Under the pieces are notes generated by a model that saw nothing but the letters and a program-made list of their open reading frames with translations, was not told the DNA's origin and searched no databases. Below are positions 2,794 to 32,135 of a DNA stretch of 32,135 bases, piece after piece. Every line of letters begins with the position of its first letter. Position 1 is the first letter of the stretch. The position numbers were made by a program, and so were the translations under genes. This DNA is from Fusobacterium sp. IOR10 (GTDB lineage: Bacteria; Fusobacteriota; Fusobacteriia; Fusobacteriales; Fusobacteriaceae): positions 64,001 through 96,135 of the forward strand of contig NZ_WJWY01000005.1 in the NCBI RefSeq assembly GCF_010367435.1. The letters are read 5' to 3'.

Positions 2794-2854
2794 ATATTGA
2801 AATTTCTATTATTTCAAGTTATAATATTCTATACATTTTAATTAGGAGAATTTT

Positions 2855-3625
2855 ATGGAAAACTTAAAAAATAAAACTTTAGAAAAAAATGTTCCTGCAA
2901 TAGAAAAAGCTGATAAAATTTTCACTTACCTTTATCATAACGAAAAAGCCAACCAAGTAACTATTTCAAGAGAATTGAACTTATCGAAAGCTACTGTTAA
3001 CCGCCTTCTTTTTGTTCTTGTTAAACTAGAATATTTAAACTTAAATAATAGTTTTTATTCTTTAGGAAATAAATTTTCAATTTTTTCAAATAAAAATAAT
3101 AAATATAATATTATAATGAATATTACCTATCCATATTTAGAAGAACTTTCTTTAAAATTTAAAGAAACATTTAAATTAAGCGTCTTAGACGAAAATATTG
3201 TAAGATGCATAGCTAGTGTTGAAAGTAGTGATTATATTAAAGTCCCTGTATCAAATAAGGCTATTTTCCCACTTCATGCAGGAGCAGCTAGTAAACTACT
3301 TATTTCTCAATTAAGTGATAACAAATTAAATAACTTACTTGAAAAAAATCTTCCTAAATATACTGAAAATACCATCACAGACAGAGAAACTTTAAAAAAA
3401 GAACTGTTAAAAATAAACTTTAAAAAAATTGCTTTTGATAATATGGAACATTCAGAAAAGATAAAAGCTATTGCTACTCCTATTTTAAATGAAAACAATC
3501 AAATTATAGCTGCTATTAGTTGCCCTTGTTTTCCTGAAGATTTGACTACAGAAAAAATAGAAATTATTTCTAAAAGTATGTGCTATATTTGTGATGAAAT
3601 ATCTAAAAAATTAAAATATTTTTAA
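2855..3625 (+). CDS. IclR-family transcriptional regulator
   Basis: This 256-residue protein has an N-terminal winged helix-turn-helix (about residues 14-70, including VTISRELNLSKATVNRLL) and a C-terminal effector-binding domain. The latter includes the FPLHAGAASKLL segment around residue 140 and a conserved AIATPILNENNQIIAAIS strand near 205-222. IclR proteins are homodimeric regulators that often sense small acids such as KDG, glyoxylate or aromatic acids. A ribosome-binding site (TAGGAGA) precedes the start. It follows the ROK gene by 61 bases on the same strand and converges on kduD with only six bases between stop codons. That position next to the keto-deoxyuronate genes makes it a candidate KdgR-like regulator. 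However, a second IclR gene at 8403 is better placed, so the target is uncertain. Confidence 0.82.
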   Translation: MENLKNKTLEKNVPAIEKADKIFTYLYHNEKANQVTISRELNLSKATVNRLLFVLVKLEYLNLNNSFYSLGNKFSIFSNKNNKYNIIMNITYPYLEELSLKFKETFKLSVLDENIVRCIASVESSDYIKVPVSNKAIFPLHAGAASKLLISQLSDNKLNNLLEKNLPKYTENTITDRETLKKELLKINFKKIAFDNMEHSEKIKAIATPILNENNQIIAAISCPCFPEDLTTEKIEIISKSMCYICDEISKKLKYF

Positions 3626-15000: not shown

Positions 15001-16200
15001 TTAATTTCCTAATTTAAATTTGTAAACTGCACCAACTCCAGCTGCATAATCATTTCCAGATCCTGTAGTTAAAGAATATTTAGCATTTACATTTAAATTT
15101 TCTGTAGGTGCATAAGCAACCCCAACTGCTACTGCTTGACTATTTCCATAGTATCCAGTACCAACACCAAAGGCCATTTCTCCCTCTTCAACATTTTTAA
15201 AGTCTATTGCATCCATTGCTGCAAGTAAAGACATTCCTTGATTTAATTTTTCATCAAGATTATTAAGTTGATTTCCTAGAGAAGTTATACCTGATGCATT
15301 TGTTGCTACACCTGTTGTATTTGCTCCTATTGCTGTATCTTGAACTGCATCTGCTGCTATTCTGTCATTTGTTTCTGTTGTTATTGCTGTTGCATTTGTT
15401 GCTATTGCTCCTGTATTTGTTGATATATTAGTTTGATTTGTTGCTATTGCTGTGCCATTGGCTGCTACACCTGATGTATTTGCTGCTATACCTGTTGTAT
15501 TAGTTGCTATGTCTGTTGCATTATTTCCTATATCTGTTGTATTATTTGCTATGTCTGTTGCATTATTTCCTATATCTGTTGTATTATTTCCTATATCTGC
15601 TGCATTATTTCCTATATCTGCTGTATTATTTCCTATATCTGTTGTATTATTTGCTATGTCTGTTGCATTAGTTCCTATATCTGTTGCATTATTTGCTATG
15701 TCTGTTGCATTATTTCCTATATCTGTTGTATTAGTTCCTATGTCTGCTGCATTATTTCCTATATCTGTTGTATTATTTGCTATGTCTGTTGCATTAGTTC
15801 CTATATCTGTTGTATTAGTTCCTATATCTGTTGTATTAGTTCCTATATTTGTTGAATTTGTTGTAATTAATCCTGTGTTTGCTGTTATTAATCCTGTGTT
15901 TGCTGTTATTAATCCAGTATTTGCTGTTATTTCAGCTGTATTTGCTGTTATTAACCCAGTTTCTGCTGTTATTGCCGCTGTATTTGCATTGATTGCTGCT
16001 CCATTAGCGTTTATATCCACTGCTACTTCAGCAGCTACATCTATTAATCCTGTAACTCCAGTATAATCTGCATCAGTTACTCCAGCACCAAAAGCTGCTG
16101 TTCCTATTATCAAAAAGGAAACAACTGCACTTAGAGTTAATTTAACTCTACCCTTCAAAGAACTTTTTAATAATTTTTCCGTATTTCTTAAATCATTCAT
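15001..16200 (-). CDS. YadA-type trimeric autotransporter adhesin with heptad-repeat stalk
   Basis: From ATG 16200 the protein is 399 residues. An extended signal peptide (residues 1-39, basic N-region then LTLSAVVSFLIIGTAAFGA) directs export. Residues 63-279 are an uninterrupted stalk of 31 seven-residue repeats of the type IGNNTTD. Residues 312-399 form a YadA-like anchor, with a coiled-coil linker (LNNLDEKLNQGMSLLAAMDA) and four membrane strands (MAFGVGTGYYG to AAGVGAVYKFKLGN). Three chains should form a 12-strand barrel in the outer membrane with the stalk outside. There is almost no head domain, so any binding activity must lie in the stalk. The start is chosen because TGGAGATGA lies upstream; an in-frame ATG 15 bases earlier overlaps that site. 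Terminator and promoters flank it, so it is transcribed alone. The general type resembles fusobacterial adhesins such as CbpF, but orthology is not claimed. Confidence 0.88.
   Translation of the reverse strand: MNDLRNTEKLLKSSLKGRVKLTLSAVVSFLIIGTAAFGAGVTDADYTGVTGLIDVAAEVAVDINANGAAINANTAAITAETGLITANTAEITANTGLITANTGLITANTGLITTNSTNIGTNTTDIGTNTTDIGTNATDIANNTTDIGNNAADIGTNTTDIGNNATDIANNATDIGTNATDIANNTTDIGNNTADIGNNAADIGNNTTDIGNNATDIANNTTDIGNNATDIATNTTGIAANTSGVAANGTAIATNQTNISTNTGAIATNATAITTETNDRIAADAVQDTAIGANTTGVATNASGITSLGNQLNNLDEKLNQGMSLLAAMDAIDFKNVEEGEMAFGVGTGYYGNSQAVAVGVAYAPTENLNVNAKYSLTTGSGNDYAAGVGAVYKFKLGN
15364..16014 (-). repeat. 31 x 21-bp coding repeats (heptad array)
   Basis: The stalk is coded by in-frame 21-bp units without interruption. 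Consensus per unit is I-(G/A/T)-(N/T/A)-N-(T/A)-(T/A/G)-(D/L); 29 of 31 have Asn at the fourth position and two (ITAETGL and ITTETND) have Glu. The central units (about 15490-15850) are nearly identical in DNA, so slipped-strand changes in copy number are expected. Confidence 0.9.
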
Positions 16201-16255
16201 AAAAATCATCTCCATTTAATTTATTTAATCTATACAAATATTAACGATAATAAAT

Positions 16256-16725: not shown

Positions 16726-18366
16726 CTATATTCTTACAACTTCATCACTAAAACCATCTTCACTATAATTTCCAGGTACTGTGATAACTGTGTAAATATT
16801 AAACTGTAAAGCTTCCTTCTTGCTTTGTATATATTCCTTACAATCTTCATCTATAACACAAGCTCCATCAGAAACCATAAATATATCTGCCTTTTTATAC
16901 TTACCTGATTCTTCTAATATTTCAATACTTCTTTTTAAAGGTTCTTCAAAATCTGTGCTCACTCCAAATCCCTCATTTAAAAATTTCAAGGTTTTCTTTA
17001 TGTCATCTCCACATTTATGTTCCTTTTCCTTTACTTCCCCTTTTCCACCAAATATTAATATATAAAGGTTTCTATTTTCTTCCTTTAAATAATCTATAGT
17101 GGCTAGGGCCAAAGCCTTTGCCTTTCTCATACTTTTCCCAAACATACTTCCAGAAGTATCAAGAAGCATTATAACTGGTCCATTTTCTATTTTTGGAGAT
17201 TTTTTTCTTTTTTCATCATCCCCTGAAATTTCATAGCTTAACAAACTTTTTTCAAAATATTTAGCGTAAAATAAATATTCCAAATCCTCATCCACTAAGT
17301 TAACAACTTCATTTGGAAGAACCCTTGTAATATTATCATTTTTTTCTATTCCATATACCTCGTCATTTAAGTCATAAACCTTAACTTTTTCAAGGGTATT
17401 TGTTGTCTCTTCCTTACTTATAAATTCTCTTCCTAGTTTTTCTATCATATTTTTTAATTCTTCATTGTGCTTCATTTCATATACAACAGCTTCTAAATTC
17501 AAAAGGTTAAGTCTTTTAGAATCATTTGAACTAAAGCTTGTTCCTAGATCTTCCCCTACCTCTTGAAGCTCATCATATTCCTCTTCTATCATATCAAAGG
17601 AAGCTAGTATTGAATCTGCCTTTATTAGCACAACTTCAGGAATGGATTCATCTCTAATTTCATTTAAGTAAGACATTATAACTTCCCTTTGTATTCTAAT
17701 ACTTTGAAGGGTGTTTTCATTTAATTGCATATTGGAATATTCCTTTAAATCCAAGTTTATATTTGGTTCAGGAATCATTTTGAACTTATTTTTATAGTCC
17801 CAAAGCAGCCATTTAGTCACTCCTAATTTGTCCCTTGCCTCTTTTCTTAAATTATTTAAAAATATATCTTCCTTTTCAATTAAATATTCATTTTTTATTA
17901 CAAATTCCCTGTATACCTCTTCATCTTCATATTCAATAACAACATTATATTTCAAAGGCACATCCATTAAATTAATTTTTTTATCTCCACTACTATCCAC
18001 ATAGGCTAAAACTTTTTGTACAAATTCATGGGAATTTTTAAAATTATAGTTATATAGGTCAATATCAAAAATATGTTTTTCAGCACCTTTGGCTAGATTA
18101 TCACTTCCAATAACCCCATCCCTGTTAGCTGACATGTATATTCTCATATCCTTTTCATCTAATATATCATCATATTCAAAGGAAAGAATTTGGGACTTTG
18201 TTTTATTTTTATAGTGCAAAAGTATTATATTATTTTTAGTACCTATAACTCCAGAGCCTATACACTGTCCATATTTTTCAAAATATACTATACTCCCTGG
18301 AATAGGAAGAACTTTTTCTCTAAAATCCACATCTATATATTCTCTTATTTTATCAAAGGGAGTCAT
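16726..18366 (-). CDS. VWA-domain protein, partner of MoxR ATPase (ViaA-like)
   Basis: From ATG 18366 the protein is 546 residues. The last ~150 residues form a von Willebrand A domain with the full metal-ion site: DTSGS (about 403-407), the Thr in GVSTDFEEP and the Asp in VSDGA. The N-terminal ~390 residues are acidic and helical with no known domain; a stretch near residues 245-265 (EEEYDELQEVGEDLG) could be a coiled coil. It follows the MoxR-type ATPase by eight bases, the arrangement of E. coli ravA-viaA. There the VWA protein binds the ATPase and acts with it on membrane or respiratory targets. AGGTG five bases upstream supports 18366; an in-frame ATG at 18384 overlaps the ATPase gene and lacks a site. 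ViaA orthology is likely but unproven, and the protein is longer than E. coli ViaA. Confidence 0.78.
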   Translation of the reverse strand: MTPFDKIREYIDVDFREKVLPIPGSIVYFEKYGQCIGSGVIGTKNNIILLHYKNKTKSQILSFEYDDILDEKDMRIYMSANRDGVIGSDNLAKGAEKHIFDIDLYNYNFKNSHEFVQKVLAYVDSSGDKKINLMDVPLKYNVVIEYEDEEVYREFVIKNEYLIEKEDIFLNNLRKEARDKLGVTKWLLWDYKNKFKMIPEPNINLDLKEYSNMQLNENTLQSIRIQREVIMSYLNEIRDESIPEVVLIKADSILASFDMIEEEYDELQEVGEDLGTSFSSNDSKRLNLLNLEAVVYEMKHNEELKNMIEKLGREFISKEETTNTLEKVKVYDLNDEVYGIEKNDNITRVLPNEVVNLVDEDLEYLFYAKYFEKSLLSYEISGDDEKRKKSPKIENGPVIMLLDTSGSMFGKSMRKAKALALATIDYLKEENRNLYILIFGGKGEVKEKEHKCGDDIKKTLKFLNEGFGVSTDFEEPLKRSIEILEESGKYKKADIFMVSDGACVIDEDCKEYIQSKKEALQFNIYTVITVPGNYSEDGFSDEVVRI

Positions 18367-18374
18367 ACTATCAC

Positions 18375-19439
18375 CTACAGCCATATGTTATTTTTTAATA
18401 TTTCAAATTGATCTTTTTTAGTTATTGGAATTTTCAATATTTCATCACTTTGAATTCCCAATTTTTCCCATATTTCATTTGATATTTCTTTTCTATAATT
18501 TGTTTTTTCCACAGTGTCAATATCTATTTTCCCAACAATTGCATTTATTTTTTCAATTAATACTTCCTTGTCCCTAGGATCATTCCACAACATATGTATT
18601 AATATGTACATGTCACTTACATCAACTGATAATCTGTCATTTGTATAAGCTGATACCTTTAATATTTTCACCATTTTTTTCAGTCTTCTATCAGATATTT
18701 TTAAACTTTCAAGCTCATCTTCATTATTGTTTATTTCTTTTCTTATGTCTCCAATTGCAACTAATATTTCCCTTGGAATGTATACTTTTTTTATTTCTTC
18801 TTTAATTGAAGTAAGTACATTAACATCTATTTTCAAATCAATTGGAACTTGAAAATTTTCACTGTCTGATTCTAATAAAGATATAATATCAGTGTCTTCC
18901 ACATAGTCCACATACATTCTTATTAAGAATCTATCATATAGAGCTGAAAGTTGAGATTCTTCTAGGGGCAATTCATTTGAAGCTCCTATTAAAAAAGCAA
19001 GGGGGGTTTTTATTTTCCTATTTCCATTATGAAATATTTTTTCATTTAATATTGTAAGAAGGGAATTTAATATTGAAGAGTTAGCCTTGAATATTGAAGA
19101 GTTAGCCTTGAATATTTCATCTAAAAAGGCTACCTTGGAACTTGGTAAATATCCTTGAATCTTCCTTATATAATTACCCTTTTTTAAATCCTCTATTGAT
19201 AGGGGCCCAAATATTTCCTCAGGAGTTGAAAATTTTGTTAATAAATATTCAAAATAGTCCTCTTCCTTTAAAATTTTAGACATTCTTCTTCCCACTTCAC
19301 TTTTGGCAGTTCCTGGTGGTCCAATAAGGATTATGTTCTCCCCTGCTAACATAGTTAGTAGAGATATTTTAAGCACCTCTTCCTTTCCAACTAAACCTTT
19401 ATTTAATACCTGTAATAAGTTTTTTAATTTTTCTTTCAT
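18375..19439 (-). CDS. MoxR-family AAA+ ATPase (RavA-like) with internal 7-residue duplication
   Basis: From ATG 19439 (GGAGG five bases upstream) the protein is 354 residues. It has Walker A GPPGTAKS (about 40-47), Walker B VAFLDE (about 103-108), sensor-1 Asn in GASNE (about 155), and an arginine-finger-region motif SALYDRFLIR. MoxR ATPases form hexamers that act as chaperone-like machines with VWA proteins; the next gene encodes such a protein. Immediately after Walker B, the usual FKANSxILNSLL helix is present with FKANSSI repeated twice in tandem, coded by a perfect 21-bp DNA duplication (19071-19112). This adds two helical turns to a highly conserved segment and may impair ATP hydrolysis or oligomer contacts. 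The rest of the frame is intact. An in-frame ATG at 19451 precedes the ribosome-binding site and is rejected. Confidence 0.86.
   Translation of the reverse strand: MKEKLKNLLQVLNKGLVGKEEVLKISLLTMLAGENIILIGPPGTAKSEVGRRMSKILKEEDYFEYLLTKFSTPEEIFGPLSIEDLKKGNYIRKIQGYLPSSKVAFLDEIFKANSSIFKANSSILNSLLTILNEKIFHNGNRKIKTPLAFLIGASNELPLEESQLSALYDRFLIRMYVDYVEDTDIISLLESDSENFQVPIDLKIDVNVLTSIKEEIKKVYIPREILVAIGDIRKEINNNEDELESLKISDRRLKKMVKILKVSAYTNDRLSVDVSDMYILIHMLWNDPRDKEVLIEKINAIVGKIDIDTVEKTNYRKEISNEIWEKLGIQSDEILKIPITKKDQFEILKNNIWL
19071..19112 (-). repeat. Perfect 21-bp tandem duplication inside the MoxR ATPase gene
   Basis: Bases 19071-19091 and 19092-19112 are identical and adjacent, and they keep the frame. 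The duplicated residues FKANSSI lie directly after the Walker B acidic pair. The complete identity implies a recent event or an assembly artefact. Confidence 0.95.
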
Positions 19440-19466
19440 TTCATCCTCCATTCTTTTATACTGCCT

Positions 19467-20936: not shown

Positions 20937-21304
20937 ATAAGCTAAACTTAAGAAAATGTAATAATTTAACTACTAAACAATATTATTATCTTTTGAATTT
21001 AGCAAAAATATATAGAATAATTATGAGATAAAGCATCATATCCTTTCTTTTAGTGTTACAACTTAATTGTAAGGGATTTTGCATTTGTCTCATTTTTTTT
21101 TGCAAAAGGTTTATTTTATTGTATAGAGAAAAGCAGAAAAATATATCCATTCATTATTTTAAAAAATATTTTTTCTAGAATCATTATATATTTTATTTCT
21201 TTAAAAGTCAGAAATCCTTTGATTTATATACAATAATGTTGTATAATAAAACTCGCTCCAAAATAGTAAAGATTACAAATTGTACAACATAAAACAAGGG
21301 GGGA
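20937..21304. other. 368-bp intergenic region before the giant adhesin
   Basis: AT-rich non-coding DNA with no frame of note. TTTTGCA (21077-21083) and TGCAAAA (21101-21107) form a weak stem and are not a convincing terminator. The supported content is the promoter at 21219-21247, the inverted repeat across it (21228-21244) and a TTGTACAA palindrome at 21280-21287 in the leader. Confidence 0.6.
21219..21247 (+). promoter_or_regulatory. Promoter of the giant adhesin gene
   Basis: TTGATT (21219-21224) and a perfect TATAAT (21242-21247) are 17 bp apart, giving a leader of about 50 bases. ATACAA-TAATG-TTGTAT (21228-21244) is an inverted repeat that covers the spacer and part of the -10 box, a plausible operator. 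Confidence 0.75.
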
Positions 21305-24300
21305 ATGGTTATCAATACAAAAATCAGTAAAAGGTTAGTAAAAAAAATTCTTAGTTTAGGTTTATTTTTATTGGTTGGCTTAAATATTTTTGCTACTAAT
21401 GGTGTTGCTACTTTAAATAGAAGTACTAAAACAACTAATTATGTGAATGGGAATTATGTGGAATATACTTTAGAACTGAAAAATACCACGAGCACAAAGC
21501 AAGAAAATTTAACTTTAAAGGACACTTTTTTTAATTCAAGTGGAATAGAAGATATTTCAATTGAAGTGTTGGAAAGTAAAGGTGAAGGAACTTCAATAGA
21601 TGTATCAGGGGCATTAACTGAGGGAAGTGATTTGGAAATTTCAGGAATTACATTAGGGTATACTCCAGAAGTTACAGATGATAGGTCTGTTACAACAGCT
21701 GAAGAAAATGGATATATAAAATTAAAAATAAAAGGAAAGATAAAAGATGCCTTTACAGATAATATAGTAAGTTATGGAGAATTATCAAATGATTCAGGTG
21801 TATTATATAAAACAGCTGATTCAACGTTGACTCCAGCATCTTCAAATGTATCTATCACAAAATCAACAACAAATATAGGTAACTATTTACCAGGTGATGA
21901 AATAGAATATAATATCACTGTAACTAATAGTGGTGAAGGATATGCCTATGGATATAATTTATTAGATGATTTAAGTGAAGTAAAGACAGCATTAGCAAAT
22001 GATAGTACAGGTTCTATAGCTGATTCAAGTGATATAACTTCAGGAAGTGCATTTGATTCAGGAACTATTACCCTTGTTAGCAAAGGCAGCAATTCAGGAT
22101 CTAAGTATACAGTTGGAACTTCTCAAAATTCATTAAGTTTAGACGATAATATATATATAGCTCCAGGGGAAAGCTTAACTTATAACATTAAAAGAACAAC
22201 AAATAAATCTGCCATTGGTGAAATAGAAAATGTTGCAACTATTAGCAATGGAACAGATACTAAAACAAGTGAAACAATTAAAGTATCTCCAGAAGAGTTA
22301 AATACTTCAGATGTAACTATAGAAAAAACAGTTGCAGTAACTGAGTACGAACCAGGGCAAGATGTTACTTATACAATTACAGTAAAAAATAATGATAGTG
22401 ATAAATTTGTAAATAACTATAATATTACAGATAATATAAGTGATATTTTAACTACTCAAGCTGATGGAACAAATGGACAGGCTTTTAGTAGTTGGACTTT
22501 AAATGTAGTGTCTCCAACAACTTCAAATGATGGAACAAAGGTTGGAACTGCAATTTCAGGAACATCAACAACAAGTGATATAGATATAAATGTTGATATG
22601 GCTCCAGGGGAAGAAATAACATATGAGTTAGTAGCTAAAGTTTCAGATACTTCAGTTGGAACAATTTTAGATAATAGCGCCTCAAATAATGTTGTTGAAA
22701 GTGGAAATGGAATAAAATCTAAATCTCCAAATGTATCTATAACAAAAACAACAACAAATAAAGAAAAATATTTACCAGGTAATGAAATAGAATATAACAT
22801 CACTGTAACTAATAGTGGTGAAGGATATGCCTATGGATATAATTTATTAGATGATTTAAGTGCAGTAAACACAACATTAGCAAATGATAGTACAGGTTCT
22901 ATAGCTGATTCAAGTGATATAACTTCAGGAAGTGCATTTGATTCAGGAACTATTACCCTTATTAGCAAAGGCAGCAATTCAGGATCTAAGTATACAGTTG
23001 GAAATTCTCAAAGTTCATTAAGTTTAGATGATAATATATATATAGCTCCAGGGGAAAGCTTAACTTATAATATTAAAGGAATAACAAATAAATCTGCCAT
23101 TGGTGAAATAGAAAATGTTGCAACTATTAGCAATGGAACAGATGATAAAACAAGCGAAACAATTAAAGTATCTCCAGAAGAGTTAAATACTTCAGATGTA
23201 ACTATAGAAAAAACAGTTTCAGTAACTGAGTACGAACCAGGGCAAGATGTTACTTATACAATTACAGTAAAAAATAATGATAGTGATAAATTTGTAAATA
23301 ACTATAATATTACAGATAATATAAGTGATATTTTAACTACCCAAGCTGATGGAACACAAGGCCCAGCTTTTAGTAGTTGGACTTTAAATGTGGTATCTCC
23401 AACAAGTTCAAATGATGGAACAAAGGTTGGAACTACAATTTCAGGAACATCAACAACAAGTGATATAGATATAAATGTTGATATGGCTCCAGGGGAAGAA
23501 ATAACATATGAGTTAGTAGCTAAAGTTTCAGATACTTCAGTTGGAACAATTTTAGATGGTAGCGCATCAGATAATGTTGTTGAAAGTGGAAATGGAATAA
23601 AGTCTTATCCATCTCAACTAGCTATAAGTAAAACAGTTAATGAAACAGAATATAGTCCAAATTCTATATTAACTTATCAAATAATCATTGAAAATAAAGG
23701 AAATGGTTATGATACAGATGTAAAAGTTAAAGATTTATTAAGCAGTATTATGGATGAAGAAGGAAATGGCTCAAATAATGCATTTAAATCTTGGTCAATA
23801 ACTTCAGAATTTGAATCTTTAGATGCTGCCACTGGAGGAACTCCAAGTGGAGATTCTGGAATAACTTCAGAATCATTAGTAGACACAGATTTAGATGTTA
23901 TAGCTCAAATAGGAGCAAGAACTAAGTTAGTTTATACAATAAAAGCTACTGTTAGTGGAACAGTTTTTGGAAAAATAGTAAATACAGCTAGTATTGATGA
24001 TAAGCTTTACTCAGACAAAGGATGTTTTCCAATAGATCCAGATATAACTACCACACTTACAAGTGATTATCCAAGTTATCCTAAATCAACTGATGATTTA
24101 TCAAATTCATTTGATATAACTTATACATTAACAGTTTCAAATGATGAAAATGCAGGATTTGCTAAGGATGTTCAAATAACAGATCTATTAAGTGACATCT
24201 CAACTACAGCTTTAAATGGAGATGAAATATCAAATTTATTTGAAAGTTTTAATATAATAGCTACTACTTCAGATGATGATACTAAAATAACTAGTGGTGG

Positions 24301-27300
24301 GACCTATACCTCAGGTATTAATGACACTGTAGATATTACAGCAGGAGGTAATGTTAAATATACTATTACAGCAAAGGTAAAAAGAGACCCAAGCAATAAT
24401 ATAATTCCATATGAAGAGATAGTAAATACTGCAACAGTAACTCCAAAGGATAAAGATGGAAATGATATGTCTACTATAAATTTATCTTCTACAACAAGTA
24501 AAGAACTTCCAGCTTTAAAAATAACAAAGTCCACTTCAAATATGACTTATTTGCCAGGTGGAGAAATCACATATTTTTTAACAATTGAAAATACTGGGGA
24601 AGGTTATGCCAATAATGCTATTGTATCAGACACATTATCAACTAACTTTAGTTCATGGACTATAAAAAAAATAGTTCCTGATACTTTTATTGGAACTAAT
24701 GCAGATGTTAATGGTGACGTTTTAGATAATAATGATATAAGTGCAACAGCTGATATAGCTCCAGGAGAAACTGTTCAATACAAAATAGTAGGAATAGCAA
24801 AGTCTGACCTTACAAATAATTTTATTTTAAATGTGGGAACAGTGGAAGATACTCAAAGGGGGAACCTTTATGAATCTTCAGTTAAATTAATGGAAATTAC
24901 AGATTTAGGATTCTATATTACAAAGGAAGCAGAGGAATATTCCTATGCTCCAGGGGGAGAAATAAATTATACAGTTACACTTTATAATACAACATCTGAA
25001 GTTCTTAATTTTGGAGATTTAGACTATAAATTTATAGATAAATTTTCTGAAATTGATACTAATTTAGCAAATGATAAAGGTGGAACAACAACAGATACAA
25101 CAGGGTCTCCTTTTAAAAAGTTATTTGTTTCAGTAAATGATGGAACTGAAGTAGAAATAACAGATGTTAATTCAGATTATGAGGATGAACCAACTTTATC
25201 ACCAGGAGTAGTTGAATCAGGGAACTTAATTACACCTAAAGCATATACTTATAAATTTAGAGGAGTGTTAAAGGATAATATACTTTCAGATGAAATAAAA
25301 AATGAAGCAGTTGTGGAAGATTCAAGTGGGGCAGAGATGGTAATTGCTTCACATGAAATAGATGGAAGTAACAGTGGCTCTTACACAAGAAAAGTAAGTG
25401 AATCTAAGTATACACCAGGTGATGAAATAACATACACATTTATAGCTACGGGAGTTGATGGGTATTTAAACGATTATCATGTAAATGAAGATATAAAAAA
25501 TATTCAAGTTGAATTATTAGATGGAACTACAGGAAATCCATTTTCAACAGGTACTGGAGACCCACAATTTACAGTAAAAAGATATATAAATGATGTTTTA
25601 GATGATGATCCTAATTCCAGTGGAACTGTAACTAGTTCAGTGTCAGATAATGAAAATATAGATCAAATTATAGATGTATCTCCAGAGGATATTGTTAGAT
25701 ATGAAGCTACAGGTGTTATAAGGCAGGATATAGCTGGAACAATTAATTTTAACGGCTTAGTAACAGAACCCTATAGACATAACTTAGTGACAACAACAAC
25801 AGTTGAAGAAGGAGATTATGTAGCAGGGGAAGAAATAACTCTAAAAACAACAATAGGAAATAATAGTAATGGTAATGCATCAAATATTTCTATAAAAGAT
25901 ATTATTTCTGATTTAAAAGTTGATTTATCAAATGGAACAACAGGAGATTTATTTCCAGATGGTTGGACAATAACAACAGAAACATTAGGAGATAATGGAG
26001 ATCTTATAGAGGTTGGTACCTATTTAGATTCAAATGACCTTAGCACTGAAATTTGTATTCCTGTTAATTCTACTTTAATCTATAAAATTACAGGGGTGGT
26101 AAATGAATTGGCAGTGGGAACGGCTATTAATAAGGTAATTGTTGATGGAGATACAGTTTCTACAGATATAAGTAGTTTATCAGATAACCTAACTGTTACT
26201 AAAGAAATTGATTCATATTATAAAAGTGATAAAATAACAACAGTAACAGGGGGATATGTTCCAGATGGTTGGATAAAATATAAAATTTCTATAAATAATA
26301 TAGGAAGTGGAATAGCAAATGACATAGTTATTTCAGATGCCCTGTCAAATATAAAAACAACAGCATATAAGGATGATGGAACTACTGAAGAAATAGCTGC
26401 TTTTTCAGAATGGGAAATTTTAAGTTATGAAAAAACAGGAAATGAAAATCAATCTGTTATTAATTTAAATAGTGGAACTGAAGCCCTAGGTAGTACTTCT
26501 TTAGAATGGGAAATGGATATTCCTTCTAAAGGTAGTATAGCTGTATATGTTTTGGCCCATGTAAGTGAAGGGGCTATAGGGGATATTAAAAATACAGTAA
26601 CAGTTGACGGAAAAGATTACAGTTCAGAAACTTCAGAATCTTTAGAAGGAAAAGCTGTATTAACTAAAAAAGCTTATGAATCTGATGGGGTTACTGCTAA
26701 AAGTAAATATGCTCCAGGGGATACTGTTATTTATAAAGTTTCAGTTGAAAATACAGGAGACGGAATAATCTCTGGAACAATCAAAGATGAAATAAGTAAA
26801 ATAACATCTTCTATTGAAGAGGATGGTACCAATGGAACAACTCCAGAAGGATTTAGTTTCAGTAATTTTACAGTAACAGCTAGCAAAAGCAACAGTGGTA
26901 CAGATAATATAACAAAAATAGGAAGTTTTGAGTCAGAATTAACTAAAACAGATGTTGATATAAATGATGTATTAATAATTGCTCCAGGAGCAACAGTTAC
27001 ATTTGAAATAAAAGGTACAATAAAAGCTAATGTAATTGGGAATGTTAAAAATACAGCAGAATTTGAAAATGAATCTAAAAGTGTAACATTAAAAGAAAAA
27101 TCATCAAATATATCTGTTGAAAAAAAGGTTATAAAGGTAGGAGATACAAGTATTTCAGATGGGACAGATCCTATCAATTATAATCCAGGGGATACAATTG
27201 AATATTTAATAACAATTACAAACACAGGATATGGACATAAAAACAATTTAAGATTAACAGAAAATATTGATGAAATTACTTCTGAAATAGCTGGTAGTGA

Positions 27301-30300
27301 GAGTACATCAACAGCCTTTGAAAGTTATACCTTTGAGATTTTAGATTCTGGGGATAGTTATATTAGAAAATACGGATTAATAACAGTAATGGATATGGCT
27401 CCAGGAAAAGAAAATGATCCAGAGGTAGTAACAATAAAAGTGACAGGAAAATTAAAAGATAATGTTATTGGGGAAATAGCTGAAAATATAGTAACTTATA
27501 ATAACACAACAGCAGAAAGTGAAAAATTAGAACCTTATGATCCTAAAATAACATATTATAAATCATTTACTGATTCTTCAAAAAATGAAATTTCAGAAAA
27601 AGAATATTTTTCTCCAGAAGAAACACTTTATTATAAACTTGTAGTGGAAAATACAGGGGATGGATATGCTAATGATTTAAAGATAATCGATAAAATTTAT
27701 GATTTAGCAACAAGCTATAATGATAAAGCCTTTGAAGATGGAGAGGTAACAGTTACTACAAAAATTTATAATGGAACTTCCATAACAAATGGAACTGATG
27801 ATGGTAAAACTTATATTATGGGTGATATTTCAGGATCTTCTTTAATAAATTCAACAGTGGATATAGCTCCTAATTCAACTGTAGAGTTTTATATTTCTGG
27901 AAAAACAACAGCCTATGCTTTAGGTACTATTACAAATAAAGTTACAGTTACAGGGGATGGTAATCCAACTATTGAAACAGGGAAAACTGATAATGTAACA
28001 ACAGAATCAAAGCCATCAAATATAGTTGGTGATAAAATAGCAGGAATAGATTCAAGTGTTAGTGATGTTTCTTATACTCCAGATGGAGATATTTCTTATA
28101 AATTGACATTTGATAATACAGGTGAAGGACCTGGAATTGTCTATATTGAAGATATAGTTTCTAATATAAAAGTTGCAGGGCCAGGAGGAAATGAGGTAGA
28201 TGCTTTCCAATCAGGATATAAATTTGTTTTAAAAACTGAAAGCGGAACTGTATATTATCCATCTGATTCAACAAGTGCAATATCTTCATCTAAGACAATA
28301 AGTGGAGATTTAGATACAAGTATAAAATTAGGAGGAAATTCTTCATGTTCCTTTATTTTAACAGGTAAAGCTAGTATACAGGCAGTTGAAGCTATAAAAA
28401 ATACAGCAACTTATAAAATAAATTCTGAAACAGCAACAGGAACAAATATATCAGCTACAATAAATCCAACTCCAGGAGAAGTGGAAATTACAAATACAGC
28501 AGATGTAGCTAATTACACTCCAGGAGAGCAAGTAACTTACACTTTGACAATTAAAAATACTGGAGATGGATATGCACAAAATGTAAATGTTGAAGATTTA
28601 TTAAGTACTATGACAGGTGAAACATCAGGAGGTGGAGATGGTTTAGTCTTCAATTCTATAGATAATGTAATTGTAACTCATGGAACTAACAGTGCATCTA
28701 TAGGAACAGGAACTACAACCAATGGATATGAAGGGGATTTTGATATAGCTCCAGGAGAAAGTATAGTAATAAAATTAACAGGAACTGTAAATGATAATAT
28801 ACTTGGAGAAATAAAAAATGATCCAATAGTAACATATGATGGAAATCCATTAAAAGCTCCAGTGATTTTAGAAACAGTTCTTCCTGAGTTGGATATAGTA
28901 ACTAAAATATCAATAGATGGAAGTAGTTATTCACAAAATCCAACTAACTATATACCAGGTGAAAAATTATATTATGAAGTAACACTATCAAATATAGGTG
29001 AAGGTTGGGATGATAATGTAAATTTAACAAATGTAATTAATGAAATTACAGCTCTATCTTCAGATGGAACTTCACAATTAGTATTTGATGAAAGCACTAT
29101 AATTATTGCTTTAGAATCTGGGGATAATGTAACATTTGATTCAAGTGCTCATAATCTAGATGCAACTATGGACATTGCTCCAGGTGAAAATATTATTTTC
29201 AAAATAGAAGGAGTTGTTAATGATAATATCATTGGAGAAATTAAGCTTGATTCTAAATATAAAGATTCAAATGGTACAACTTCTAGTAAAACTTCAAATG
29301 AAGTTTTAGCCACACAAAAAAATGAAGAGTTATCTGTAAAAGAAAGGATTAAAAATCCAGATACAGGGATATTTGATTTAGATGAGTCAAGTTATATACC
29401 AGGGGAAGATGTGGTATTTAAAATATTTATAGAGAACTCTGAAGATACATTTGCTCAAAATATAGATATAAATAACTATTTAAAATCTATGAAAGTAGAA
29501 CTAGCAGATGGAAGTGATGGAGTTGCCTTTAGCAGTTGGACAATAGAAGAGTCTGATACTCCAACTAATGAAAATAGTTTAATAACTAATACAATAGAGT
29601 CAGGAAATAATTTAAATTCAACAGGAAATCTTGCTCCAAAGGATAAGTATTCATTTATAGTTACAGCAAAGGTAAATGAAAATGCAGTTGGAGAAATAGA
29701 AAACAGATCAACTTATACTTTAAATAGTGGAAGTGAAAATTATAGTAATACAATTAAATTTACTCCAGAGGAAAATGTAATAGAAATAACAAAAACAGCA
29801 GATTCTACAACTTACTATCCAAATGGAGAAATGGTATATAATGTAGTTATAGAAAATACAGGAAATTCAATTATTAATGATATAAGTTTTGAAGATGATG
29901 TTAATAAAGAACAAGTATTATTAGCAGATGGAAATAATGGCGACCAATTTGACAGTACAACTGTAACAGGTGAAGTTGTTGCAGGAGACACAACTTTAAC
30001 AGGAAGTGTTCCAACTATTTCAGTGGATAATACAACAGGAAAAGTTACTTCAGATACCCTCTTTGATATTAAAGCAGGTGAAAAGATAACTTTCCAAATA
30101 AAAGTAACTGTAAATGAAAATGTCGTTGGGCAAATAAAAAATACAGCAAACTACACACTAAATGGTACAACAACAGATAGTAATGAAATAATTACAGAAC
30201 CAGAGGACAATAAAATAGAAATAACAAAAACAGCAGAATCTACAACTTATTATCCAAATGGAGAAATGGTCTATAATGTAGTTATAGAAAATACAGGAAA

Positions 30301-32135
30301 TTCAATTATTAATGATATAAGTTTTGTAGATGATGTTAATAAAGAACAAGTATTATTAGCAGATGGAAATAATGGAGATCCATTTAATAGTGCAATTGTA
30401 ACTGGTGAAGTTGTTACAGGAGACACAACTTTAACAGGAAGTAATCCAACTATTTCAGCAGATAATACAACAGGAAAAGTTACTTCAACTACCTTTGATA
30501 TTAAGAAAGGTGAGAAAATAACTTTCCAAATAAAAGTAACTGTAAATGAAAATGTCGTTGGGCAAATAAAAAATACAGCAAACTACACGCTAGATGGTAC
30601 AACAACAGATAGTAATGAAATAATTACAGAACCAGAAGCAAATTCAATAGAAATAACAAAAACAGCAGAATCTACAACTTATTATCCAAATGGAGAAATG
30701 GTCTATAATGTAGTTATAGAAAATACAGGAAATTCAATTATTAATGATATAAGTTTTGTAGATGATGTTAATAAAGAACAAGTATTATTAGCAGATGGAA
30801 ATAATGGAGATCCATTTGATAATTCAACTGTAACAGGTGAAGTTGTTACAGGAGACACAACTTTAACAGGAAGTAATCCAACTATTTCAACAAATACAAC
30901 AGGAAAAATTACTTCAACTACCTTTGATATTAAGAAAGGTGAGAAAATAACTTTCCAAATAAAAGGAACTGTAAATGAAAATGTTGTGGGAGATATAAAA
31001 AATACAGCAAACTACACGCTAGATGGTGCAACAACAGATAGTAATGAAGTAACAACTGATCCAGAGGATAATAAAATAGAAATAACAAAAACAGCAGAAT
31101 CTGCAACTTACTATCCAAATGGTGAAATGGTCTATAATGTAGTAATCGAAAACACAGGAAATTCAATTATTAATGATATAAGTTTTGAAGATGATGTTAA
31201 TAAAGAACAAGTTTTATTAGCAGATGGAAATAATGGAGATCCATTTGATAGTTCAACTGTAACAGGTGAAGTTGTTACAGGAGACACAACTTTAACAGGA
31301 AGTAATCCAACTATTTCAGCAGATAATACAACAGGAAAAGTTACTTCAACTACCTTTGATATTAAGAAAGGTGAGAAAATAACTTTCCAAATAAAAGGAA
31401 CTGTAAATGAAAATGTCGTTGGGCAAATAAAAAATACAGCAAACTACACGCTAGATGGTACAACAACAGATAGTAATGAAATAATTACAGAACCAGAAGC
31501 AAATTCAATAGAAATAACAAAAACAGCAGAATCTACAACTTATTATCCAAATGGAGAAATGGTCTATAATGTAGTTATAGAAAATACAGGAAATTCAATT
31601 ATTAATGATATAAGTTTTGAAGATGATGTTAATAAAGAACAAGTTTTATTAGCAGATGGAACTGATGGAGATCCATTTGATAGTTCAACTGTAACAGGTG
31701 AAGTTGTTTCAGGAGAAACAACTATAACAACAACTCATCCAAATGTTTCAGTAAATGCAATAGGAAAAGTTACTTCAACTACCTTTGATATTAAAAAAGG
31801 TGAGAAAATAACTTTCCAAATAAAAGGAACTGTAAATGAAAATGTCGTTGGGCAAATAAAAAATACAGCAAACTACACGCTAGATGGTACAACAACAGAT
31901 AGTAATGAAATAATTACAGAACCAGAAGCAAATTCAATAGAAATAACAAAAACAGCAGAATCTACAACTTATTATCCAAATGGAGAAATGGTCTATAATG
32001 TAGTTATAGAAAATACAGGAAATTCAATTATTAATGATATAAGTTTTGAAGATGATGTTAATAAAGAACAAGTATTATTAGCAGATGGAACTGATGGAGA
32101 TCCATTTGATAGTACAACTGTAACAGGTGAAGTTG
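21305..32135 (+). CDS. Giant secreted DUF11-repeat surface protein, 3' end outside the window
   Basis: The frame stays open from ATG 21305 to the window edge: at least 3,610 residues with no stop. A signal peptide is likely (KRLVKKILSLGLFLLVGLNIFA). The rest is about 25 modules of 135-150 residues, each with a start like VSITKTTTNxxxYLPGxEIEY, then ITVTNSGEGYA, an acidic DLLSxI turn, a central APGE motif, and an end such as GEIENVATI. This is the pattern of DUF11-type immunoglobulin-like repeats found in very long bacterial surface proteins. Near-identical modules lie at both ends of the visible part, with about 14 diverged modules between. No catalytic motif is seen. As the cell is Gram-negative, anchoring is expected in the missing C-terminus. 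The start is not certain: GGGGGG (21298-21303) lies only one base before the ATG, closer than usual. Adhesion or cell-cell contact is an inference. Confidence 0.85.
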   Translation, partial: MVINTKISKRLVKKILSLGLFLLVGLNIFATNGVATLNRSTKTTNYVNGNYVEYTLELKNTTSTKQENLTLKDTFFNSSGIEDISIEVLESKGEGTSIDVSGALTEGSDLEISGITLGYTPEVTDDRSVTTAEENGYIKLKIKGKIKDAFTDNIVSYGELSNDSGVLYKTADSTLTPASSNVSITKSTTNIGNYLPGDEIEYNITVTNSGEGYAYGYNLLDDLSEVKTALANDSTGSIADSSDITSGSAFDSGTITLVSKGSNSGSKYTVGTSQNSLSLDDNIYIAPGESLTYNIKRTTNKSAIGEIENVATISNGTDTKTSETIKVSPEELNTSDVTIEKTVAVTEYEPGQDVTYTITVKNNDSDKFVNNYNITDNISDILTTQADGTNGQAFSSWTLNVVSPTTSNDGTKVGTAISGTSTTSDIDINVDMAPGEEITYELVAKVSDTSVGTILDNSASNNVVESGNGIKSKSPNVSITKTTTNKEKYLPGNEIEYNITVTNSGEGYAYGYNLLDDLSAVNTTLANDSTGSIADSSDITSGSAFDSGTITLISKGSNSGSKYTVGNSQSSLSLDDNIYIAPGESLTYNIKGITNKSAIGEIENVATISNGTDDKTSETIKVSPEELNTSDVTIEKTVSVTEYEPGQDVTYTITVKNNDSDKFVNNYNITDNISDILTTQADGTQGPAFSSWTLNVVSPTSSNDGTKVGTTISGTSTTSDIDINVDMAPGEEITYELVAKVSDTSVGTILDGSASDNVVESGNGIKSYPSQLAISKTVNETEYSPNSILTYQIIIENKGNGYDTDVKVKDLLSSIMDEEGNGSNNAFKSWSITSEFESLDAATGGTPSGDSGITSESLVDTDLDVIAQIGARTKLVYTIKATVSGTVFGKIVNTASIDDKLYSDKGCFPIDPDITTTLTSDYPSYPKSTDDLSNSFDITYTLTVSNDENAGFAKDVQITDLLSDISTTALNGDEISNLFESFNIIATTSDDDTKITSGGTYTSGINDTVDITAGGNVKYTITAKVKRDPSNNIIPYEEIVNTATVTPKDKDGNDMSTINLSSTTSKELPALKITKSTSNMTYLPGGEITYFLTIENTGEGYANNAIVSDTLSTNFSSWTIKKIVPDTFIGTNADVNGDVLDNNDISATADIAPGETVQYKIVGIAKSDLTNNFILNVGTVEDTQRGNLYESSVKLMEITDLGFYITKEAEEYSYAPGGEINYTVTLYNTTSEVLNFGDLDYKFIDKFSEIDTNLANDKGGTTTDTTGSPFKKLFVSVNDGTEVEITDVNSDYEDEPTLSPGVVESGNLITPKAYTYKFRGVLKDNILSDEIKNEAVVEDSSGAEMVIASHEIDGSNSGSYTRKVSESKYTPGDEITYTFIATGVDGYLNDYHVNEDIKNIQVELLDGTTGNPFSTGTGDPQFTVKRYINDVLDDDPNSSGTVTSSVSDNENIDQIIDVSPEDIVRYEATGVIRQDIAGTINFNGLVTEPYRHNLVTTTTVEEGDYVAGEEITLKTTIGNNSNGNASNISIKDIISDLKVDLSNGTTGDLFPDGWTITTETLGDNGDLIEVGTYLDSNDLSTEICIPVNSTLIYKITGVVNELAVGTAINKVIVDGDTVSTDISSLSDNLTVTKEIDSYYKSDKITTVTGGYVPDGWIKYKISINNIGSGIANDIVISDALSNIKTTAYKDDGTTEEIAAFSEWEILSYEKTGNENQSVINLNSGTEALGSTSLEWEMDIPSKGSIAVYVLAHVSEGAIGDIKNTVTVDGKDYSSETSESLEGKAVLTKKAYESDGVTAKSKYAPGDTVIYKVSVENTGDGIISGTIKDEISKITSSIEEDGTNGTTPEGFSFSNFTVTASKSNSGTDNITKIGSFESELTKTDVDINDVLIIAPGATVTFEIKGTIKANVIGNVKNTAEFENESKSVTLKEKSSNISVEKKVIKVGDTSISDGTDPINYNPGDTIEYLITITNTGYGHKNNLRLTENIDEITSEIAGSESTSTAFESYTFEILDSGDSYIRKYGLITVMDMAPGKENDPEVVTIKVTGKLKDNVIGEIAENIVTYNNTTAESEKLEPYDPKITYYKSFTDSSKNEISEKEYFSPEETLYYKLVVENTGDGYANDLKIIDKIYDLATSYNDKAFEDGEVTVTTKIYNGTSITNGTDDGKTYIMGDISGSSLINSTVDIAPNSTVEFYISGKTTAYALGTITNKVTVTGDGNPTIETGKTDNVTTESKPSNIVGDKIAGIDSSVSDVSYTPDGDISYKLTFDNTGEGPGIVYIEDIVSNIKVAGPGGNEVDAFQSGYKFVLKTESGTVYYPSDSTSAISSSKTISGDLDTSIKLGGNSSCSFILTGKASIQAVEAIKNTATYKINSETATGTNISATINPTPGEVEITNTADVANYTPGEQVTYTLTIKNTGDGYAQNVNVEDLLSTMTGETSGGGDGLVFNSIDNVIVTHGTNSASIGTGTTTNGYEGDFDIAPGESIVIKLTGTVNDNILGEIKNDPIVTYDGNPLKAPVILETVLPELDIVTKISIDGSSYSQNPTNYIPGEKLYYEVTLSNIGEGWDDNVNLTNVINEITALSSDGTSQLVFDESTIIIALESGDNVTFDSSAHNLDATMDIAPGENIIFKIEGVVNDNIIGEIKLDSKYKDSNGTTSSKTSNEVLATQKNEELSVKERIKNPDTGIFDLDESSYIPGEDVVFKIFIENSEDTFAQNIDINNYLKSMKVELADGSDGVAFSSWTIEESDTPTNENSLITNTIESGNNLNSTGNLAPKDKYSFIVTAKVNENAVGEIENRSTYTLNSGSENYSNTIKFTPEENVIEITKTADSTTYYPNGEMVYNVVIENTGNSIINDISFEDDVNKEQVLLADGNNGDQFDSTTVTGEVVAGDTTLTGSVPTISVDNTTGKVTSDTLFDIKAGEKITFQIKVTVNENVVGQIKNTANYTLNGTTTDSNEIITEPEDNKIEITKTAESTTYYPNGEMVYNVVIENTGNSIINDISFVDDVNKEQVLLADGNNGDPFNSAIVTGEVVTGDTTLTGSNPTISADNTTGKVTSTTFDIKKGEKITFQIKVTVNENVVGQIKNTANYTLDGTTTDSNEIITEPEANSIEITKTAESTTYYPNGEMVYNVVIENTGNSIINDISFVDDVNKEQVLLADGNNGDPFDNSTVTGEVVTGDTTLTGSNPTISTNTTGKITSTTFDIKKGEKITFQIKGTVNENVVGDIKNTANYTLDGATTDSNEVTTDPEDNKIEITKTAESATYYPNGEMVYNVVIENTGNSIINDISFEDDVNKEQVLLADGNNGDPFDSSTVTGEVVTGDTTLTGSNPTISADNTTGKVTSTTFDIKKGEKITFQIKGTVNENVVGQIKNTANYTLDGTTTDSNEIITEPEANSIEITKTAESTTYYPNGEMVYNVVIENTGNSIINDISFEDDVNKEQVLLADGTDGDPFDSSTVTGEVVSGETTITTTHPNVSVNAIGKVTSTTFDIKKGEKITFQIKGTVNENVVGQIKNTANYTLDGTTTDSNEIITEPEANSIEITKTAESTTYYPNGEMVYNVVIENTGNSIINDISFEDDVNKEQVLLADGTDGDPFDSTTVTGEV
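21845..23614 (+). repeat. 885-bp tandem duplication in the giant adhesin
   Basis: Bases 21845-22729 are repeated at 22730-23614 with a constant 885-bp offset (295 residues) and few differences. Each copy holds two unlike modules: one beginning VSITK with SGEGYAYGYNLLDD, the other beginning VTIEKTV with NDSDKFVNNYNITDN. The duplication is in frame. Confidence 0.92.
29780..32135 (+). repeat. Array of ~432-bp near-identical repeats, continuing past the window
   Basis: Six copies begin at 29780, 30215, 30647, 31076, 31508 and 31937 (the last truncated by the edge), with steps of 435, 432, 429, 432 and 429 bp. Each encodes 143-145 residues starting IEITKTA, with YYPNGEMVYNVVIENTGNS, an acidic loop LLADGxxGDPF and KITFQIKxTVNENVVG. 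The steps differ by whole codons, so the frame is kept. Confidence 0.95.

Follow-up and report, generated by a model that had tools for sequence, protein, structure and literature searches.

The open reading frame that begins at position 21305 of the window (the whole stretch of 32,135 nucleotides of Fusobacterium sp. IOR10 DNA analysed here) is probably the 5′ four-fifths of a gene for a Sec-exported adhesive fibre of at least 4,514 residues, and the barrel protein encoded next to the end of this gene probably provides both the passage of the fibre through the outer membrane and its anchor. We infer that the fibre lies outside the cell, leaves through the barrel and acts in adhesion. As judged from comparison of gene sequences across genomes, fibre and barrel form a conserved unit.

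A sequence-only reading of the window had described more than 10.8 kb of a single open frame. This was confirmed, as no stop occurs in the 3,610 codons of 21305..32134 on the plus strand and the frame is still open at the window end. The chance of such a stop-free run, computed with the base composition of the ORF itself, is about 1e-150. The window corresponds to C5:64001-96135 and contig C5 has a length of 96,135 bases, so that it is the assembly that interrupts the frame. The features of this region are as follows.

21219..21247, plus strand: weak sigma-70-like promoter candidate, TTGATT-17-TATAAT
21305..32135, plus strand: 5′ part of the giant fibre gene of DUF11/Ig modules, 3,610 codons or more, truncated where the contig ends
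21305..21394, plus strand: Sec signal peptide MVINTKISKRLVKKILSLGLFLLVGLNIFA, read from the translation
21416..21796, plus strand: divergent N-terminal Ig-like module, residues 38-164, presumed distal end (module analysis)
21845..22729, plus strand: two-module unit 1, 295 residues (181-475) (module analysis)
22730..23614, plus strand: two-module unit 2, 295 residues (476-770), 92% identical to unit 1 (271/295)
23624..29743, plus strand: 14 diverged DUF11 modules, residues 774-2813 (module analysis)
29786..32134, plus strand: homogeneous array with modules of 143-145 residues (2828-3610), of which five are complete and the sixth is cut
32009..32135, plus strand: 127-nt assembly junction, the same sequence as the final 127 nt of contig C20; both C5 and C20 lead to contig C50

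This layout agrees closely with the earlier description. The announced signal peptide is present in the translation, the roughly 25 Ig-like modules proved to be 24 complete modules and a partial one (29 modules when the gene is joined to its continuation on C50), and the diverged modules number 14, as estimated. Both 295-residue units were found, although "near-identical" is slightly strong for an identity of 92%. The homogeneous array was borne out by the steps measured from residue 2828 (145, 144, 143, 144 and 143 residues) and by TRF, which reported 5.5 copies of 429 nt with a 93% match. The dedicated promoter that had been proposed was unsupported: the candidate listed above exists, but six promoter-like sites were found in the region before the fibre gene against 4.1 ± 2.0 expected, an excess that is not significant.

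Upon comparison with family profiles, the fibre matched Pfam DUF11 (PF01345) in 13 stretches (E 1.4e-58, 196.6 bits for a cut-off of 24.6), TIGR01451 in 20 stretches (6.5e-70, 231 bits for a cut-off of 24) and the isopeptide-forming domain TIGR04226 in eight stretches (51.8 bits for a cut-off of 30). At least 14 of the 29 modules have both a Lys in the first strand and an Asn in the last, positioned for putative internal Lys-Asn isopeptide bonds. No catalytic domain was found with the Pfam and NCBIfam profiles, in line with the earlier reading, and Pfam profiles revealed no lectin or other domain in residues 38-164. The composition of the fibre (T 13%, S 10%, three Cys) can be called adhesin-like. 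The structure prediction of modules that had been recommended was run on a two-module piece and gave a model with a pLDDT of 92, whose best PDB matches were PrgB Ig domains, antigen I/II C-domains and integrin ectodomains; the antigen I/II matches include SspB, with two isopeptide bonds.

Elsewhere in the window, positions 15001-16215 of the minus strand encode a 404-residue trimeric-autotransporter-like protein with many ITANT/IGTNTTD repeats, opposite which the ORF 15452-16066 is probably spurious. Upstream of the fibre region, adjacent MoxR-like AAA ATPase and VWA-domain-like genes were recognized by eye at 16726-19451, also on the minus strand.

The continuation of the fibre gene and the gene next to it are found on contig C50.

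L011:3488-6202, minus strand: 3′ part of the fibre gene on C50, 904 codons
L011:1-3486, minus strand: barrel gene on C50

The in-frame join of C5 and C50 yields at least 3,610 + 904 = 4,514 residues, to which C50 contributes four modules and a C-tail domain of about 260 residues that follows the last module and carries the motif GVRLIVLDGVVVETDEFGRYHVPD. The early stop or frameshift beyond the window, which would have spoken against a giant protein, is absent from this inferred continuation. The barrel gene starts 1 base after the fibre stop codon and its product, of 1,161 residues, comprises a signal peptide, a pair of Ig-like domains and, C-terminally, a beta-rich region whose last residues are GWFINIVGVF. 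How the fibre is exported and anchored, which had not been evident from the visible part, can now be addressed because C50 supplies both a conserved C-tail domain and a dedicated outer-membrane barrel gene. The three kinds of C-terminus that had been suggested were not recovered: the fibre protein P0003 contains no PF00691 (relatives do have an OmpA domain), no autotransporter domain (PF03797) is present in P0001, P0003 or the barrel P0002, and no type IX sorting domain was found in P0003 with Pfam and NCBIfam.

The IOR10 barrel matched no Pfam or NCBIfam family, and 18 fusobacterial members gave only scattered weak profile matches, some of them to outer-membrane barrels such as OmpA. Sequence searches of the PDB with the barrel profile, the module profile and the C-tail returned no usable match. 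The barrel was modelled on a Photobacterium profundum relative, 46% identical to the IOR10 barrel, for which a pLDDT of 76 and a pTM of 0.72 were obtained, the model showing about 40 strands downstream of its two Ig-like domains; as a single mid-confidence model of a relative, it is unreliable in the details of pore, gating and strand count. With this model, Foldseek returned distant matches, mostly to outer-membrane barrels (MtrB, SprA, SlpA, FimD, LptD), the PDB matches having TM values below 0.2 by query, and a viral fold library gave generic matches only.

A fibre-barrel pair is recognized by a C-tail domain and a barrel gene that are adjacent or fused, as they are in IOR10 with their 1-base gap and in 76 of 80 GTDB loci. 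Among 98 Fusobacteriota genomes, the barrel was present in 26 and the C-tail in 25, and both occurred together in 24 (Fisher p about 2e-19, kinship being ignored). The exceptions, two genomes with the barrel only and one with the C-tail only, are all weak or cut matches. A search of GTDB genomes with a single barrel sequence gave no match; with a barrel alignment, which was required, at least 565 stretches encoding relatives were found. In the best 80 of these at least 565 loci, 71 barrel genes are adjacent to a C-tail gene, mostly with an overlap of 4 nt, five are fused to it and four lie at contig ends.

In three Fusobacteriota genomes, fibre and barrel are one protein of 5,263, 5,264 or 5,295 residues, in which the barrel part has no signal peptide of its own, and shorter forms in a single frame, of about 1,900 residues, were seen as well. 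The finding of genes that are separate in one genome and joined in another classically points to a physical or functional partnership of fibre and barrel. Two genomes have the reversed order, barrel first and then fibre, with fibres of 7,675 and 10,047 residues. The longer of these is a 30-kb frame on the reverse strand of G024:C15 (L169, L170), in a fusobacterial genome of 2.3 Mb, directly downstream of the barrel gene and with the C-tail domain at its end. The other, at G034:C6:35440-58464 (L171, L172) in the genus of IOR10, contains a GEVED domain within its first 1,000 residues. At L072:13700-14050 (genome G005), a gene that in the close relative G010 encodes fibre and barrel together is split at the junction; the separated barrel part has no signal peptide, so that it may be inactive or reflect a sequencing error. 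In Vibrio jasicida, two fibre-barrel units stand in tandem on one contig (NZ_BAOG01000082.1; L092, L098).

Barrel relatives of 25-28% identity on large plasmids of Alphaproteobacteria (H5-H7, H9, H11, H14, H15) are labelled 'TonB-dependent receptor', a label that looks unfounded. In annotated plasmid records, barrel copies bear this name, 'OmpA family protein' or 'hypothetical protein', and the plasmid records of Vibrio campbellii and Sinorhizobium meliloti offered no usable annotation for the pair.

The domains that accompany the fibre in relatives bear on its topology. L-type lectin domains (PF18483) were found at the fibre N-terminus in two relatives, with E values of 1.5e-34 and 6.1e-41.

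L078:10384-11130 and L079:6193-6795: N-terminal L-type lectin domains in two fusobacterial relatives, one of them in the genus of IOR10

In six examined relatives (L077, L112, L115, L116, L145, L168), an OmpA domain (PF00691) follows the C-tail. One of the two lectin lineages also has OmpA, L077 being closely related to L078, which bears the lectin; the two domains were seen in different relatives, and the IOR10 fibre has neither. Lectin tips act outside the cell and OmpA domains bind peptidoglycan in the periplasm. With lectins at the N-terminus and OmpA at the C-terminus, the chain would have to cross the outer membrane near the C-tail, which is the site of the barrel. This analysis of relatives implies a topology in which the tip is outside, the root in the periplasm and the barrel the passage, and a crossing at the C-tail would fit the autotransporter-like order of the fused forms. 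In all, the earlier interpretation is partly supported: its long, non-catalytic surface-contact fibre of Ig modules is well supported by the module fold, the matches to adhesin domains and the lectin tips of relatives.

The following mechanism may be proposed. Both proteins would be exported by Sec and the barrel would insert in the outer membrane. The fibre would then leave through the barrel, while its C-tail would remain there and plug or hold it. Some 29 rigid Ig/DUF11 modules would form a thin rod of roughly 100 nm, stiffened by isopeptide bonds, and the distal N-terminal tip would bind a surface or another cell. In relatives with OmpA after the C-tail, the root would be tied to peptidoglycan, and in fused relatives the barrel would be the C-terminus of the fibre itself.

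Two other arrangements of fibre and barrel are weaker than export through the barrel. An unlikely one, which nevertheless deserves consideration, is that the barrel anchors only: the giant chain would be exported by a general pathway and its C-tail would dock at the barrel afterwards. Indeed, neither POTRA nor any other known signature of an exporter was found in the barrel, which also matches no family, and its structural matches include the non-secretory MtrB and SlpA. However, in the fused members the fibre precedes the barrel within one chain, as the passenger does in an autotransporter, and relatives carry N-terminal lectins of external type or C-terminal OmpA domains of periplasmic type. 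Furthermore, neither ShlB (PF03865) nor SprA_N was found in the IOR10 genome, although both searches lacked a positive control and so prove no absence.

It is improbable that the fibre remains in the periplasm or beneath the outer membrane and serves as a structural link between peptidoglycan and barrel. The C-terminal OmpA domains of relatives and a signal that consists of a Sec peptide only are in agreement with such a linker, but some 29 rigid modules far exceed the width of the periplasm, and both the N-terminal lectins of relatives and the adhesin-like composition and fold of the fibre argue against it.

That the window gene continues on C50 is indicated by exact overlaps of 127 nt in the assembly. 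This contig, of 6,204 bp, begins within the fibre array, its first 127 nt being identical to window 31704-31830, and its far end overlaps both C26 and C17 by exactly 127 nt. These constant overlaps indicate an assembly graph with k = 127, in which two copies have been collapsed into the single contig C50, reached by two paths and left by two. The stretch common to both copies ends at the barrel stop codon, and a genome-wide search revealed no further copy of the barrel or the C-tail in Fusobacterium sp. IOR10. Because the assembly lacks the joining node, the connection of C5 to C50 is one that we infer; array copies may be missing there, and the array may be longer than counted. The second entry comes from C20, where another giant fibre gene (L010:26-10496) is 60% identical to the C5 fibre over most of its length. 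Its frame shifts near codon 203, which may be a sign of decay or else a sequence error. The 3′ portion of this second locus, together with the barrel, seems to be identical to that of the C5 copy, which suggests recent gene conversion or recombination. That the C5 gene is unconnected to C50, the 127-nt overlap reflecting a common array only and the gene having another 3′ end or none, is very improbable: the joining node is missing and two fibre loci compete for a single C50, but C50 has the two exits expected of a collapsed two-copy contig, the genome holds no other barrel or C-tail, and the reading frame is preserved over the join.

In a tree of 38 barrels, all eight Vibrionaceae members (Vibrio, Aliivibrio, Photobacterium) nest inside Fusobacteriota, next to the IOR10 barrel and two of group g14, with a support of 100/99, and the same was seen in a larger tree. 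Monophyly of the Fusobacteriota barrels was rejected (AU p = 3.3e-5). The Vibrio loci hold the whole unit; in V. campbellii, a 3,771-residue fibre of 24 modules is followed, 68 bases downstream, by a 1,171-residue barrel. The natural reading of this nesting and of the whole-unit loci is a transfer between phyla, most simply from Fusobacteriota to Vibrionaceae, a direction that depends on the root being placed among other phyla.

We tentatively put forward an undescribed route of export and anchoring, in which an exceptionally wide barrel family would thread giant Ig fibres of up to about 10,000 residues, occur in split and fused forms and have moved between Fusobacteriota and Vibrionaceae as a unit. 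Should the barrel prove to export the fibre, this would be a new secretion route. To our knowledge, the crossing of the outer membrane by giant Ig-repeat fibres of diderms has been solved for few systems only. The dedicated barrel accompanies the fibre in hundreds of genomes of several phyla, including culturable Vibrio and Photobacterium, and has no family entry; the current database labels of its copies would need correction. A literature search, with most subscription journals outside its coverage, found no paper on the pair of C-tail fibre and barrel. Ig modules and giant adhesive rods are already known, whereas no description of the barrel family, of its split and fused forms or of its spread seems to exist in the literature searched.

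The IOR10 fibre resembles the repeat surface proteins defined by DUF11 and TIGR01451, which are likewise large and repetitive, and its module matches are strong; DUF11 describes the module alone, however, and the fibre adds a C-tail and a barrel partner. The Ig domains of streptococcal antigen I/II (SspB/SpaP/BspA) and of PrgB are closest to the predicted module fold, and the TIGR04226 match and Lys/Asn placement are shared with isopeptide-stabilised adhesins (antigen I/II, RrgB D2). In contrast to the streptococcal adhesins, the fibre belongs to a diderm and has no LPXTG anchor, and its isopeptide bonds are predicted. LapA and SiiE are also giant adhesive rods of Ig repeats, SiiE having 53 Ig domains and 595 kDa (PMC5466336); these type I-secreted proteins have a T1SS signal and an ABC transporter, whereas the IOR10 fibre carries a Sec signal at its N-terminus and is encoded beside the gene of a barrel. 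Within the fibre-barrel system itself, IOR10 falls outside the OmpA-anchored subgroup, as no PF00691 follows its C-tail.

With type V systems, the pair shares an N-terminal passenger, a C-terminal or separate barrel, a single operon and Sec signal peptides. Barrels of type V systems consist of 12 to 16 strands. The present barrel, by contrast, has a region of about 860 residues in which about 40 strands are predicted, and it lacks both POTRA and a family match. It differs from classical autotransporters (type Va, PF03797), the fused relatives having a different barrel, and from two-partner secretion (type Vb), since P0002 has no Pfam match and so no Omp85/POTRA ShlB match. Finally, SprA, the type IX translocon, is a very large outer-membrane barrel and a Foldseek match to the barrel model; the two differ in that their TM is below 0.2 and that the presumed substrate of the fibre-associated barrel is encoded next door.
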